A stretch of 64,000 bases of DNA from Microbispora sp. H11081 (GTDB lineage Bacteria > Actinomycetota > Actinomycetes > Streptosporangiales > Streptosporangiaceae): NCBI RefSeq assembly GCF_012999535.1, contig NZ_JABBWV010000005.1:372001-436000 (forward strand). Reading direction: 5' to 3'. A program made the translations under genes and the position numbers. Numbering within the stretch: position 1 is the first letter of the stretch; every line of letters begins with the position of its first letter. The notes beneath the pieces were generated by a model that worked only from the letters and a program-made list of their open reading frames with translations, did no database searches and was not told where the DNA came from. Shown here piece by piece: positions 34,886-37,523 of this stretch.

Positions 34886-36064
34886 TCAGCGTTTGACGGC
34901 GCGCAGCACGACGAACTTGGGGTCGCTCGCGACGACCTCGCAGTTGCCGAAGAGCCTGCGCAGCTTCACGTGGTAGCCGAGGTGGCGGTTGCCGACCACC
35001 CACAGTTCGCCGCCCCGCCGCAGCGCGGCACGCGCGCCGTTGAACATCCGCCAGGCGGTCGCGTCGGTCCTGCCCCGATGGGTGTGGAACGGCGGGTTGT
35101 TCAAGACCAGGTCGGCCGTGCCCGGCGGGAAGCCGGAAAGGCCGTCGGCCGCCACGAACCGGGCGGTGGCGCCCGCCGGGGCGTTCGCCAGGAACGTCGC
35201 CTCCGCCGAGGCCAGCGCCTGATGGGACTCGTCGATGAAGGTCACCTCGGCCTCGTCGCCGGACAGCGCCGCGGCGAGCCCGAGCACGCCGTTGCCGCAG
35301 CCGAGGTCGACCACGTGCTCGGGTCCCTTGCGCGCGGGCAGGCCGCTCAGCAGGAGCCGGGTGCCGGCGTCGAGACGCTCGGCGGAGAAGACGCCGGCGT
35401 GGCCGACGACGGTCAGGCCGGAGACCACCCCGGCGCCGGCGGGCAACGTGTAGCTCCGCGGCCACGGGCTCGGGCTCCGAGGCAGGCCGGGGTCGGGCGA
35501 GCAGAAGATCAGCCGCGCCTTCCGCACCGCCAGCGAGGTCCTGGTCGGCCCGAGGACGCGCTCGAACAGCTTCAGCGTCGAGGTGTGGATCTCGGTGACC
35601 ATCCCCGCGCCGACGACCACCGTGCTCTCGTGCACGTGGGGGGCCAGGCGGTGCAACTGGTCCTCCAGGAGGGCCAGGCTCTTGGGCACCCGCACCAGCA
35701 GCACGTCGATCCGGTCCGGCGGCGCGTCCCTCGTCGTGCGCAGCCGTACGGCGTCCGCGTCGAGGCCGTTGCGCTCCAGGTTGGCGCGGGTGGCCTGCTG
35801 CCCGAGGAAGGAGTCGCTGATCTGCACGGGACTGAGGACGGGGCGCTGGGCGGCGAGTGCGGTGGCCAGTGCGGTTGACAATGCGCCCCACCGGTCGCCC
35901 AGCACGACCACGGTCCCCGACAGGTCCACCGGCCCGCCCTCGCGCTCGTCGAGGTGGCGCAGCAGGTATTCGTCGGCCGCGTCCCACGCGCGGAGCGGGT
36001 CGCGGGGATCCTCGGGGAAGCGGGCGAGGTCGAAGTCGCCCCGCGCCGTCGTCATACGGTCCAT
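34886..36064 (-). CDS. RlmG/RsmC-like class I methyltransferase
   Basis: A 392-residue protein with two Rossmann-like halves, as in RlmG and RsmC: a degenerate N-terminal half (about 1-190) and a catalytic C-terminal half. The latter has the SAM loop VVDLGCGNGVLGLAAAL and the catalytic NPPFHTHRG, which targets a guanine N2 in the family. It is most likely a 23S or 16S rRNA guanine-N2 methyltransferase. It converges with the DUF72 gene with a 17-bp gap. Confidence 0.85.
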   Translation of the reverse strand: MDRMTTARGDFDLARFPEDPRDPLRAWDAADEYLLRHLDEREGGPVDLSGTVVVLGDRWGALSTALATALAAQRPVLSPVQISDSFLGQQATRANLERNGLDADAVRLRTTRDAPPDRIDVLLVRVPKSLALLEDQLHRLAPHVHESTVVVGAGMVTEIHTSTLKLFERVLGPTRTSLAVRKARLIFCSPDPGLPRSPSPWPRSYTLPAGAGVVSGLTVVGHAGVFSAERLDAGTRLLLSGLPARKGPEHVVDLGCGNGVLGLAAALSGDEAEVTFIDESHQALASAEATFLANAPAGATARFVAADGLSGFPPGTADLVLNNPPFHTHRGRTDATAWRMFNGARAALRRGGELWVVGNRHLGYHVKLRRLFGNCEVVASDPKFVVLRAVKR

Positions 36065-36135
36065 CGCCGCTCAGGCTAGTGCCCCGCTCCACTGACAGCC
36101 GAAACAACCGGCTCGGAGATGATCTACGGCTGTGC

Positions 36136-36141
36136 TAGCGT
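36136..36141 (+). promoter_or_regulatory. Candidate -10 box of the threonine leader
   Basis: TAGCGT ends 7 bases before the leader-peptide ATG at 36149. Transcription would start at or next to the ATG, giving a leaderless leader peptide. No clear -35 is visible. Confidence 0.45.
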
Positions 36142-36148
36142 TCGCGGC

Positions 36149-36199
36149 ATGATGCGCGCCAGCCTGACGACGACGCCGGAAACCGTCCCGGCGCGCTGA
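36149..36199 (+). CDS. Threonine-rich leader peptide
   Basis: A 16-codon open frame, MMRASLTTTPETVPAR followed by TGA. Four of 16 residues are Thr, three of them consecutive (codons 7-9, 36167-36175) plus codon 12. It lies immediately upstream of an attenuator-like set of hairpins and of a threonyl-tRNA synthetase gene. Its predicted role is cis regulation: the translating ribosome senses charged tRNA-Thr. It is probably translated from a leaderless message, because a TAGCGT box lies 7 bases before it and there is no ribosome binding site. Confidence 0.7.
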   Translation: MMRASLTTTPETVPAR

Positions 36200-36243
36200 C
36201 ACGTACTCTCACCGAAGCCCCGGGGCGAGCGCCCCGGGGCTTC
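36154..36243 (+). promoter_or_regulatory. Ribosome-mediated threonine attenuator
   Basis: Arm 1 (GCGCGCC, 36154-36160) pairs with arm 2 (GGCGCGC, 36190-36196), with the Thr codons in the loop. The terminator is a perfect 13-bp stem, 36214-36226 with 36231-36243, loop GAGC. The antiterminator pairs 36187-36197 with 36228-36238 at 10 of 11 positions, which destroys the terminator. A ribosome stalled on the Thr codons would cover arm 1 and free arm 2, allowing readthrough. A ribosome reaching the stop codon would cover arm 2 and allow termination. The pairings are seen directly; the mechanism is inference from the classical model. Confidence 0.7.
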
Positions 36244-36290
36244 GTCGTCCGGTCACTCGCCTCGCCGCCGACCAACGCGAGGAGACCACG

Positions 36291-37523
36291 ATGCACGACC
36301 ACCGCAAGCTGGGCCGCGAGCTCGGCCTGTTCGACACCGACCCGCTGATCGGTGCGGGGCTGCCCTACTGGCTGCCCGACGGCGCCGTGATCCGGCACAC
36401 CCTGGAGGAGTACATCCGCGACGCCGAACGGCGCGCGGGCTACCGGCACGTGTACTCCCCCGTGCTCGGCAAACGGGAGCTGTACGAGATCTCCGGGCAC
36501 TGGTCGCACTACAGCGACGACATGTTCCCGCCCATGGACCTCGGGGGAGAGCAGGTCGTGCTGCGGCCGAGCCTGTGCCCCCACCACGCGCTGATCTACC
36601 GCTCCCGCTCGCACAGCTACCGCGAGCTGCCGCTGCGCGTCGCCGAGCTGGGCGGCATGTACCGCTCCGAGCTGTCGGGCGTGCTCGGCGGGCTCACCCG
36701 CGTGCGGGCGATCCAGCTCAACGACGCGCACATCTTCTGCACCCTCGACCAGGTCGCCGCCGAGGCGTCCGGGGCTCTGGAGATGATCCGGCGGGCGTAC
36801 GCCGTGCTCGGCATCCGCCCGGTCCGCTACCGGCTGTCGCTGCCGGGGGCCGGGGGGAAGTACGTCGCCGCCCCGGAGATGTGGCGGCGGGCGACCGCCA
36901 TGCTGACCGGCGTCCTCGACCGCTCCGGGCTGGCGTACGAGGCCGTGGAGGGCGAGGCGGCGTTCTACGGCCCGAAGATCGACGTGCAGATCGCCGACGG
37001 CGCCGGGCGCGAGGCCACTCTGTCCACCGTGCAGGTCGACTTCCACCAGCCCGAGCGGTTCGACCTGCACTACATCGGACCGGACGGCGGCAGGCACCGT
37101 CCGGTCATGGTCCACCGCAGCATCATCGGCAGCGTGGAACGCGCGGTCGCGCACCTCATCGAGGTGTACGGCGGCGCCTTCCCGGCCTGGCTCGCCCCCA
37201 CCCAGGTCGTGGTGCTGCCCGTGACCGAGGCCGAGGCGGCCCCGGCCGAGGCGCTCGTACGGCGCTGCGCCGAGCTGGGCCTGCGGGCGGAGGTCTCCGG
37301 CCCCGAGCACGGCAGCCTGGGCGCCCGTGTCCGGTCCGCCCGCCTGGTGCCGTACCAGGCGGTGATCGGCGCGAGGGAGGCCGGGAGCGACCAGGTCGCG
37401 CTGCGCCTGCGCGACGGGCGCGCGCTGGAGCCGATGCCCGCCGCCGAGGCGCTGGCCCGCATCGGCGCTCTCGCCGATGCGCGCGCCGCCGAGCTGTGGG
37501 AACCGGCCGTCCAGCCGGCCTGA
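36291..37523 (+). CDS. thrS: Threonyl-tRNA synthetase without TGS and editing domains
   Basis: A 410-residue class II synthetase charging tRNA-Thr. The housekeeping enzyme is about 640-680 residues; this one lacks the N-terminal TGS and editing domains and consists of the catalytic core plus the anticodon-binding domain (about 305-400). The zinc ligands that recognise threonine are present: C96 in SLCPHH, H147 in NDAHIFC and H275 in VMVHR. Motif 2 arginine is R125 (MYRSE) and motif 3 is SIIGSVER. AGGAG lies 6 bases before the ATG. Such short paralogues can serve as a second enzyme under threonine stress or as resistance to ThrRS inhibitors (family knowledge). Expression is probably set by the upstream attenuator. 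Confidence 0.88.
   Translation: MHDHRKLGRELGLFDTDPLIGAGLPYWLPDGAVIRHTLEEYIRDAERRAGYRHVYSPVLGKRELYEISGHWSHYSDDMFPPMDLGGEQVVLRPSLCPHHALIYRSRSHSYRELPLRVAELGGMYRSELSGVLGGLTRVRAIQLNDAHIFCTLDQVAAEASGALEMIRRAYAVLGIRPVRYRLSLPGAGGKYVAAPEMWRRATAMLTGVLDRSGLAYEAVEGEAAFYGPKIDVQIADGAGREATLSTVQVDFHQPERFDLHYIGPDGGRHRPVMVHRSIIGSVERAVAHLIEVYGGAFPAWLAPTQVVVLPVTEAEAAPAEALVRRCAELGLRAEVSGPEHGSLGARVRSARLVPYQAVIGAREAGSDQVALRLRDGRALEPMPAAEALARIGALADARAAELWEPAVQPA

Follow-up and report, generated by a model that had tools for sequence, protein, structure and literature searches.

An ACG-rich leader frame precedes an ACG-poor auxiliary threonyl-tRNA synthetase gene in Microbispora sp. H11081 and many other actinobacteria

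In Microbispora sp. H11081, the auxiliary threonyl-tRNA synthetase (ThrRS) gene thrS2 is preceded by a short frame with a run of threonine codons, thrL, and by a series of segments that are complementary to one another in several alternative ways. The features are given below in coordinates of the window, meaning the whole 64,000-nucleotide stretch of DNA that was analysed, and all lie on its forward strand. On the reverse strand (34886-36064), a divergent neighbour with an MTS (small-methyltransferase) domain starts about 70 bases from the -10-like site of thrL.

36136..36141, forward strand: -10-like hexamer TAGCGT, ending 7 nt 5' of the leader ATG
36149..36199, forward strand: thrL leader frame, MMRASLTTTPETVPAR, 16 codons from the ATG at 36149 to the TGA stop at 36197-36199
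36167..36175, forward strand: putative regulatory codons ACG ACG ACG
36174..36179, forward strand: arm 1, CGCCGG, presumably covered when a ribosome stalls at the Thr codons
36185..36197, forward strand: arm 2, GUCCCGGCGCGCU, with arm 1, arm 3 (36217-36226), or the loop plus arm 4 (36228-36238) as possible partners
36213..36226, forward strand: arm 3, CGAAGCCCCGGGGC, 5' strand of a 14-bp GC hairpin
36223..36234, forward strand: apex of the GC hairpin, GGGCGAGCGCCC, with complementarity to box 5, more weakly here than in most relatives
36231..36244, forward strand: arm 4, GCCCCGGGGCTTCG, 3' strand of the terminator-like GC hairpin, which has no U-tract
36251..36261, forward strand: arm 5 (box 5), putative anti-Shine-Dalgarno box GGUCACUCGCC
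36277..36287, forward strand: arm 6, GCGAGGAGACC, with the Shine-Dalgarno sequence of thrS2
36291..37523, forward strand: thrS2, auxiliary ThrRS of 410 aa that lacks the editing domain; its Thr codons are 9 ACC, 1 ACT and 0 ACG

An earlier note on this DNA described the synthetase as a short ThrRS lacking the editing domain, and it was right: our domain search of thrS2 returned tRNA-synt_2b and HGTP_anticodon only, with no N-terminal editing domain (tRNA_SAD), and the protein aligns to positions 171-561 of the 565 in the full-length model TIGR00418. A second ThrRS encoded elsewhere in the same genome is of full length, contains tRNA_SAD, and has a core that is 43% identical to thrS2. The short protein has a class II core, an anticodon domain, relatives in the PDB and the Cys-His-His residues that we take to be zinc ligands; since the alignment places the same residues in the housekeeping ThrRS, thrS2 probably encodes a working synthetase that does not proofread. 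It is also about 50% identical to ThrRSs of Bacillota (Anoxybacillus, Paenibacillus, Listeria), the Anoxybacillus gene being full length, and its being nearer to these than to its own housekeeping counterpart gives a hint of an old transfer.

The leader frame carries Thr at codons 7, 8 and 9 (ACG) and again at codon 12 (ACC), as read directly from the sequence. Because the hexamer TAGCGT ends only 7 nt before the ATG, the thrL transcript of Microbispora sp. H11081 is probably leaderless; the 16-codon frame with four Thr codons that had been proposed, probably leaderless, is present, and its relatives conserve it. Of 124 loci, 123 have TANNNT 6-7 nt 5' of an in-frame start and one has it 10 nt away, as compared with 89 of 6200 random positions that pass a looser rule of 4-10 nt. 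In a scan of 139 leaders, we took the T(A/G)NNNT closest to the Thr run and an ATG or GTG 6-7 nt later, with frame ignored: the distance from start to Thr run took nine values between 15 and 54 nt, all multiples of three (139/139). More than one candidate was met in four leaders, and 2 of all 143 candidates were out of frame. From this conservation of frame we infer that thrL is probably translated, in which case the locus has what characterises amino-acid-type leader-peptide attenuators, a short frame with a run of Thr codons before thrS2. A leaderless start was mapped by RNA-seq for thrL of Streptomyces lividans (PMC8079986), and at WblC-activated promoters of S. coelicolor transcription mostly starts 7-8 bp 3' of the -10 (PMC7157823).

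Residues 5' of the Thr run differ in number and kind among leaders, and the run alone is constant, while in most loci the peptide ends (M-K/Q-R-A ... TTTPESVPAR) are strongly conserved. Such conserved ends could belong to an arrest peptide, a nascent thrL product that, erm-like, senses a drug or metabolite and not Thr-tRNA, and a WblC/WhiB7-like box in part of the relatives suggests that the gene may join an antibiotic response. We nevertheless consider an arrest peptide very improbable, given the variable residues before the run, and dropped it in view of leaders L065, L119 and L121, in which the frame changes after the Thr run, so that the C-terminal residues are lost, but the Thr codons are retained, as is arm 2, whole or as its core. 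What is conserved, these frame changes indicate, is the RNA at the 3' end of the leader and the codons in the Thr run. In one leader (L046) there is an insertion 5' of the run, and its additional Thr codons are ACC rather than ACG.

The WblC promoter has been described as having GAAAWY 3 nt 5' of the -35, about 32-33 nt 5' of the -10 (PMC7157823). This motif has 33 matches in our 124 loci, all of them 32-34 nt 5' of the -10 and none elsewhere within 90 nt. WblC/WhiB7-type activation of the promoter would add to the leader's control in part of the relatives. The thrS2 promoter of Microbispora sp. H11081 shows no full WblC motif, only GAAACA 35 nt 5' of the -10. Among WblC-activated genes of S. 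coelicolor, thrS2, alaS2 and trpS are named (PMC7157823, Table 1), and alaS, thrS and trpS genes with leader peptides are listed for S. lividans (PMC8079986, Table 4); matching the two species by gene name, WblC activation together with a leader peptide is possibly a general double control of spare synthetases.

How widely the leader occurs was assessed in two samples, and the conservation of the Thr codons before short thrS genes, which the earlier note had proposed to check by alignment, was found in both. Among the best 80 of at least 565 thrS2 matches, the leader is present before 79, and the exception (L059) has just 102 nt upstream; the closest relative among the matches listed is that of Microbispora sp. 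H13382, with a ThrRS 96% identical. Leader-bearing members of these best 80 belong to Streptomyces, Kitasatospora, Embleya, Streptosporangium and Sphaerisporangium, and further to Saccharopolyspora, Nocardiopsis, Nocardia and Frankia. The second sample consisted of 394 evenly drawn Actinomycetes genomes; an auxiliary ThrRS (54-100% identity) is encoded in 62 of them. The exact leader pattern occurs in 50 of the 394, and 49 of these are among the 62; the 13 auxiliary-ThrRS genomes without it comprise 11 with a diverged leader that keeps TTTP and two cut by contig ends, and the leader precedes 60 of the 60 auxiliary thrS genes that could be tested. Among the 332 genomes without auxiliary ThrRS, one (G234) has the exact pattern, near a contig end (164 nt away), and the same-genus genomes G016 and G161 have neither the enzyme nor the leader. 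Across these genomes, the Thr-codon leader is strictly linked to thrS2, and a spare ThrRS with such a leader appears to be carried by many soil actinobacteria.

At the contig end in question (G234:C18, about 164-196; L146, L106), a whole leader with its hairpin and box is followed by a frame that looks unrelated (MTVSSRLRGWRGGGEQ...). The gene thrS2 is also found on Streptomyces plasmids, as in L217 (NZ_CP109126.1, an S. anulatus linear plasmid), which is typed mobilizable and has an IS5 transposase nearby; there the leader is present and ACG accounts for 0 of 18 Thr codons of thrS2. The leader frame of L217 is absent from the PLSDB gene table, which is incomplete. A phage origin was considered and rejected, the exact leader pattern not being found in viral contigs.

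The comparison also extended to the codon ACG. It makes up 412 of the 417 run codons (three per leader, 139 leaders); although our run-placing script required ACG at the second and third codons, zero loci were dropped thereby, and the leaders had been collected by peptide or by a pattern with free third bases. In the genes that follow, which give a contrast not described in the earlier note, ACG represents only 8 of 1258 Thr codons (0.6%; 109 thrS2 genes), and none of the 149 Thr codons of 20 further thrS2 genes, as against 69 of 291 (24%) in 20 housekeeping thrS cores from genomes having both genes and 32% of 4137 in 177 flanking ORFs chosen by a rough rule. Threonine itself constitutes 2.8% of residues in thrS2, 3.7% in the housekeeping cores and 6.0% in the flanking ORFs. 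The tRNA-Thr genes of Microbispora sp. H11081 are CGU, UGU and GGU.

This avoidance might be unrelated to the leader and reflect a general optimisation of the gene, or the leader ACGs might be kept only by pairing, since they adjoin and partly sit in the 1:2 hairpin, whose predicted fold also takes in the CGs of the Thr codons. Pairing may indeed partly maintain ACG in the leader, but this would still leave an ACG-poor thrS2 without explanation. Codons other than ACG that end in G are common in thrS2 (GCG 37%, CCG 57%, TCG 36%, GTG 39%, CTG 65%), and avoidance like that of ACG was not seen in its seven other four-fold families; in the other two reading frames, ACG makes up 41% and 29% of AC-starting triplets, and the housekeeping gene, as noted, uses ACG at an appreciable rate. 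The avoidance is therefore no general or DNA-level bias, an explanation that we rejected on these counts, and its being independent of the leader seems to us unlikely. We read thrS2 as a gene purged of the codon that its own leader would sense. Experiments with E. coli Thr isoacceptors support the selective-charging theory, in which one isoacceptor discharges first (PMC1183508). The ACG-reading tRNA-Thr may be the first to lose its charge in actinomycetes, and a leader made of the first-discharged codon, followed by a gene free of it, would be a design matching that theory.

Downstream of the Thr run, the leader RNA has alternative ways to fold. In the 1:2 hairpin, already pointed out in the earlier note, CGCCGG (36174-36179) pairs with CCGGCG (36188-36193); the motif CGCCGG-N5..10-CCGGCG is kept in 139/139 leaders, and arm 2 reads GTCCCGGCGC in 131 of the 139. 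Arm 2 can also pair with arm 3 (GUCCCGGCGC, 36185-36194, with GCCCCGGGGC, 36217-36226; 9/10, one G-U), which is the classical 2:3 pairing. The antiterminator proposed before, with 10 of 11 positions paired, exists as well (36187-36197 with 36228-36238), but it makes use of the loop and 3' arm of the GC hairpin. That hairpin (36213-36244, loop GAGC) is as perfect as claimed, with 14 bp instead of 13. Pairings 1:2, 2:3 and 3:4 are mutually exclusive, as judged from the sequence and duplex energies: in Microbispora sp. H11081, L010 and L022, the GC hairpin 3:4 has -34 to -38 kcal/mol and the 2:3 duplex -19 kcal/mol, and arm 2 with the loop plus arm 4 reaches -24.9 kcal/mol in Microbispora sp. H11081 and about -23 in the other two. 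With the usual footprint, a ribosome stalled at the Thr codons would cover arm 1 and leave arm 2 free, and a ribosome at the stop codon would cover arm 2. The spacing noted earlier is right in this respect, even if arm 2 (from 36185) begins 10 nt past the last codon of the run and not about 12.

At minimum free energy, 36149-36293 folds into the 1:2 and GC hairpins together with a helix between box 5 and the Shine-Dalgarno region (-69.7 kcal/mol, z -3.4), and 0 of 200 dinucleotide shuffles were as good; together with the recurrence of its parts before orthologues, this suggests a leader fold beyond chance. As arms 1-3 are nearly invariant, covariation is no test of pairings 1:2, 2:3 and 3:4. 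In the same three leaders, hairpin 3:4 is still predicted when folding is confined to the RNA not covered by a ribosome at the Thr codons; the OFF fold is the more stable by calculation, which led us to reject equilibrium folding as a demonstration of the ON state and means that switching would have to be kinetic.

Strong conservation of the RNA would also be expected if the small frame merely overlay a structural RNA bound by ThrRS or another protein, for which the E. coli thrS operator, bound by ThrRS, is a precedent. Several observations speak for translation of the frame instead: its start codon shares the frame of the Thr run and adjoins a -10-like site, and the run codons match the amino acid of the enzyme. 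Searches against Rfam gave no match near the leader above gathering score; the only such match in the window is a tRNA away from the leader, and the six matches at 36080-36320 (up to E 5) are all far below gathering scores. We give very little credence to the protein-binding alternative. A T-box riboswitch, or another known RNA, was rejected too, no T-box being found among the gathering-score match or the six sub-threshold ones.

It is in the U-tract that the claim that every element of classical attenuation is present breaks down: a T-run of four or more follows the hairpin in only 4 of 139 leaders, and the hairpin of Microbispora sp. H11081 lacks a U-tract. For this reason we did not file the leader as a classical transcription attenuator. 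The hairpin stem has at least 10 bp in 127 of the 139 leaders and 9 bp or less in 12, including L137, where a longer stem is divided by an indel; five of these 12 have no T within the next 10 nt. T content is 27% in the first 8 nt after the hairpin and 11% further on, and a weak terminator at the GC hairpin is possible.

A second feature that the earlier note did not include is the box 3' of the GC hairpin (GGTCACTCGCC, 36251-36261), which is able to pair with the Shine-Dalgarno region in arm 6: GGUC (36251-36254) pairs with GACC (36284-36287), and CUCGC (36256-36260) with GCGAG (36277-36281). In Microbispora sp. H11081, L010 and L022, this 5:6 helix has -16 to -19 kcal/mol, and the competing pairing of box 5 with the hairpin apex -20 to -23 kcal/mol. 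In 72 of 86 representatives, box 5 matches the Shine-Dalgarno region of its own locus better than it matches, on average, those of other loci (Wilcoxon p 1.2e-9, kinship ignored); among representatives with divergent Shine-Dalgarno regions, the same is true of 29 of 39 (p 0.005). In an alignment of 99 rows, cells changed on both sides number 36 versus 22.6 in shuffles, a value that 0 of 500 shuffles reach; of five measures based on counts of 5:6 pairs in the 99 sequences, three lie above 500 shuffles and the remaining two give no clear excess (176/500 and 44/500 shuffles). True 5:6 partners pair in 82.9% of cases and slid partners in 26-61%, with lower covariation scores for the latter, but two slid versions have more pairs changed on both sides (7 and 8) than the true register (6). 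Distant relatives keep the helix with other letters, as in L125 (GGGCUCC with GGAGCCC), L128 and L086.

Other measures of this pairing are less favourable. The pairing probability of the Shine-Dalgarno sequence is 0.67 with the real box 5 and 0.67 with a shuffled one, even though the fold energy is -17.5 with the real box and -13.3 with the shuffled box. For 16 of 139 regions, the shuffles on average fold better than the real sequence. Tree-aware tests of single 5:6 pairs gave no signal, there being too few independent changes, and do not support the outer pair beside GGUC (CG 33, UA 22) as strong covariation. For the alternative partner of box 5, the own apex pairs better than others' in 67 of 81 leaders; among rare apex types this holds for 19 of 28, which is not significant (p 0.081). 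The apex pairing is weak in the Microbispora sp. H11081 leader, and it overlaps with pairing 2:3 in part of arm 3.

Control could still be purely transcriptional, with the GC hairpin as a U-tract-less actinobacterial intrinsic terminator and the Shine-Dalgarno pairing incidental. The length and perfection of most hairpins and the enrichment of T behind them fit such an attenuator, as does a Shine-Dalgarno pairing probability no higher than in shuffles, and the auxiliary trpRS1 of S. coelicolor is reportedly controlled in this way. Under transcriptional attenuation, however, box 5 would be superfluous, as would its match to the Shine-Dalgarno region of the same locus, and neither the rarity of T-runs nor the short stems lacking any T would be expected; termination was also unclear to the authors who described the S. 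lividans leader (PMC8079986). We hold a purely transcriptional mechanism to be possible but somewhat doubtful. The missing U-tract and the conserved box 5 make control of translation at least as likely as termination.

In the reading that we prefer, the leader would act at least in part on translation. Where ACG is read fast, the ribosome would reach the stop codon and cover arm 2 (or 1:2 would form), the GC hairpin 3:4 would fold, and box 5 would pair with the Shine-Dalgarno region (5:6), turning thrS2 off; this OFF state would act by hindering the start of translation, probably with some termination in addition. In a shortage of Thr-tRNA, a ribosome stalled on ACG would lie over arm 1, leaving arm 2 to capture arm 3; hairpin 3:4 would then form late, the free apex would pair with box 5 (4:5), leaving the ribosome-binding site exposed. 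The mRNA of thrS2 could be translated even in starvation, because it contains nearly no ACG and few Thr residues, and thrS2 would serve as a spare synthetase for failure of the housekeeping ThrRS or of the threonine supply.

That thrL is a ribosome-stalling leader sensing the charging of ACG-reading tRNA-Thr, and controlling the auxiliary editing-less thrS2, appears probable to us. The comparison of sequences supports it through selection on the frame of the Thr codons, the probable leaderlessness, the alternative pairings and the strict link to thrS2. Of the threonine attenuation of thrS first proposed, the Thr leader, the exclusive pairings, their order and their spacing stand, and classical termination as then worded does not. 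We lean, with less assurance, towards a codon-insulated emergency switch, in which one isoacceptor is sensed, the gene has been purged of ACG and of many Thr residues, and what is probably a six-arm relay (1:2, 3:4 and 5:6 off; 2:3 and 4:5 on) ends at the Shine-Dalgarno sequence, instead of or besides a terminator. According to the selective-charging theory, synonymous codons fail at different times, which explains the choice of codons in E. coli leaders, thrL of that species having eight ACC codons (PMC1183508). The thrL-thrS2 pair seems to join both halves of the theory, with ACG in the sensor and ACC and a little ACT in the output gene. The circuit suggested here for spare editing-less synthetases would also make them candidates for tolerance of ThrRS inhibitors, at the risk of loading serine.

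Among known systems, the auxiliary trpRS1 of S. coelicolor, for which Vecchione and Sello reportedly established ribosome-mediated transcriptional attenuation in 2010, is comparable in being a spare inducible synthetase said to have a leader with the matching codon, and trpS is also in the WblC regulon. It differs in that its control is said to be transcriptional, and since tryptophan has one codon, its leader has no synonymous choice. The polycysteine leaderless short ORFs of mycobacteria, reportedly the subject of work by Canestrari in 2020, are likewise said to be leaderless, actinobacterial and amino-acid-sensing; they would differ in responding to cysteine and serving no synthetase. In E. 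coli thrL, Thr codons lie in a leader with alternative hairpins, but it serves the thr biosynthetic operon, uses ACC and not ACG, and has a U-tract terminator. The thrZ gene of Bacillus subtilis is T-box controlled. Both thrZ and T2 of Anabaena are, like thrS2, spare ThrRSs induced upon failure of the main one, but by a tRNA-binding T-box (thrZ) or low zinc (T2), not by a leader peptide. Low zinc induces T2 as a second ThrRS of Anabaena, and its editing domain is retained in degenerate form (PMC4787780, PMC9437257). Translational T-boxes before actinobacterial ileS have a predicted hairpin over the Shine-Dalgarno box (PMC1262725) and thus resemble thrL-thrS2, on the description given there, in synthetase gene and Shine-Dalgarno hairpin, with a T-box RNA as a different sensor. 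The same comparative survey of 2005, in its accessible text, reports no conserved structure upstream of actinobacterial threonine operons (PMC1262725).

The nearest system is already in print, contrary to the earlier note, which knew of no described case: a leaderless Thr leader, MKRVRPFLETTPGFVPAR, is listed before thrS (SLIV_19410) of S. lividans TK24 (PMC8079986, Table 4), with one hairpin and no U-rich stretch according to its authors. Judged on this description of leader and hairpin, it is very probably the same element, with two Thr instead of three, and the existence of the element is therefore not new. The accessible part of that paper presents it as a single list entry for a single strain, with no pairing model, species comparison, Shine-Dalgarno box or remark on codons, and our literature search, largely confined to papers outside subscription, found nothing on how thrL-thrS works or how widely it occurs, nor on a Shine-Dalgarno box or codon insulation in it. 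Compared across genomes, thrL is a real Thr-codon leader that was known in one strain, and it is both broader in distribution and odder in design than the earlier note held.
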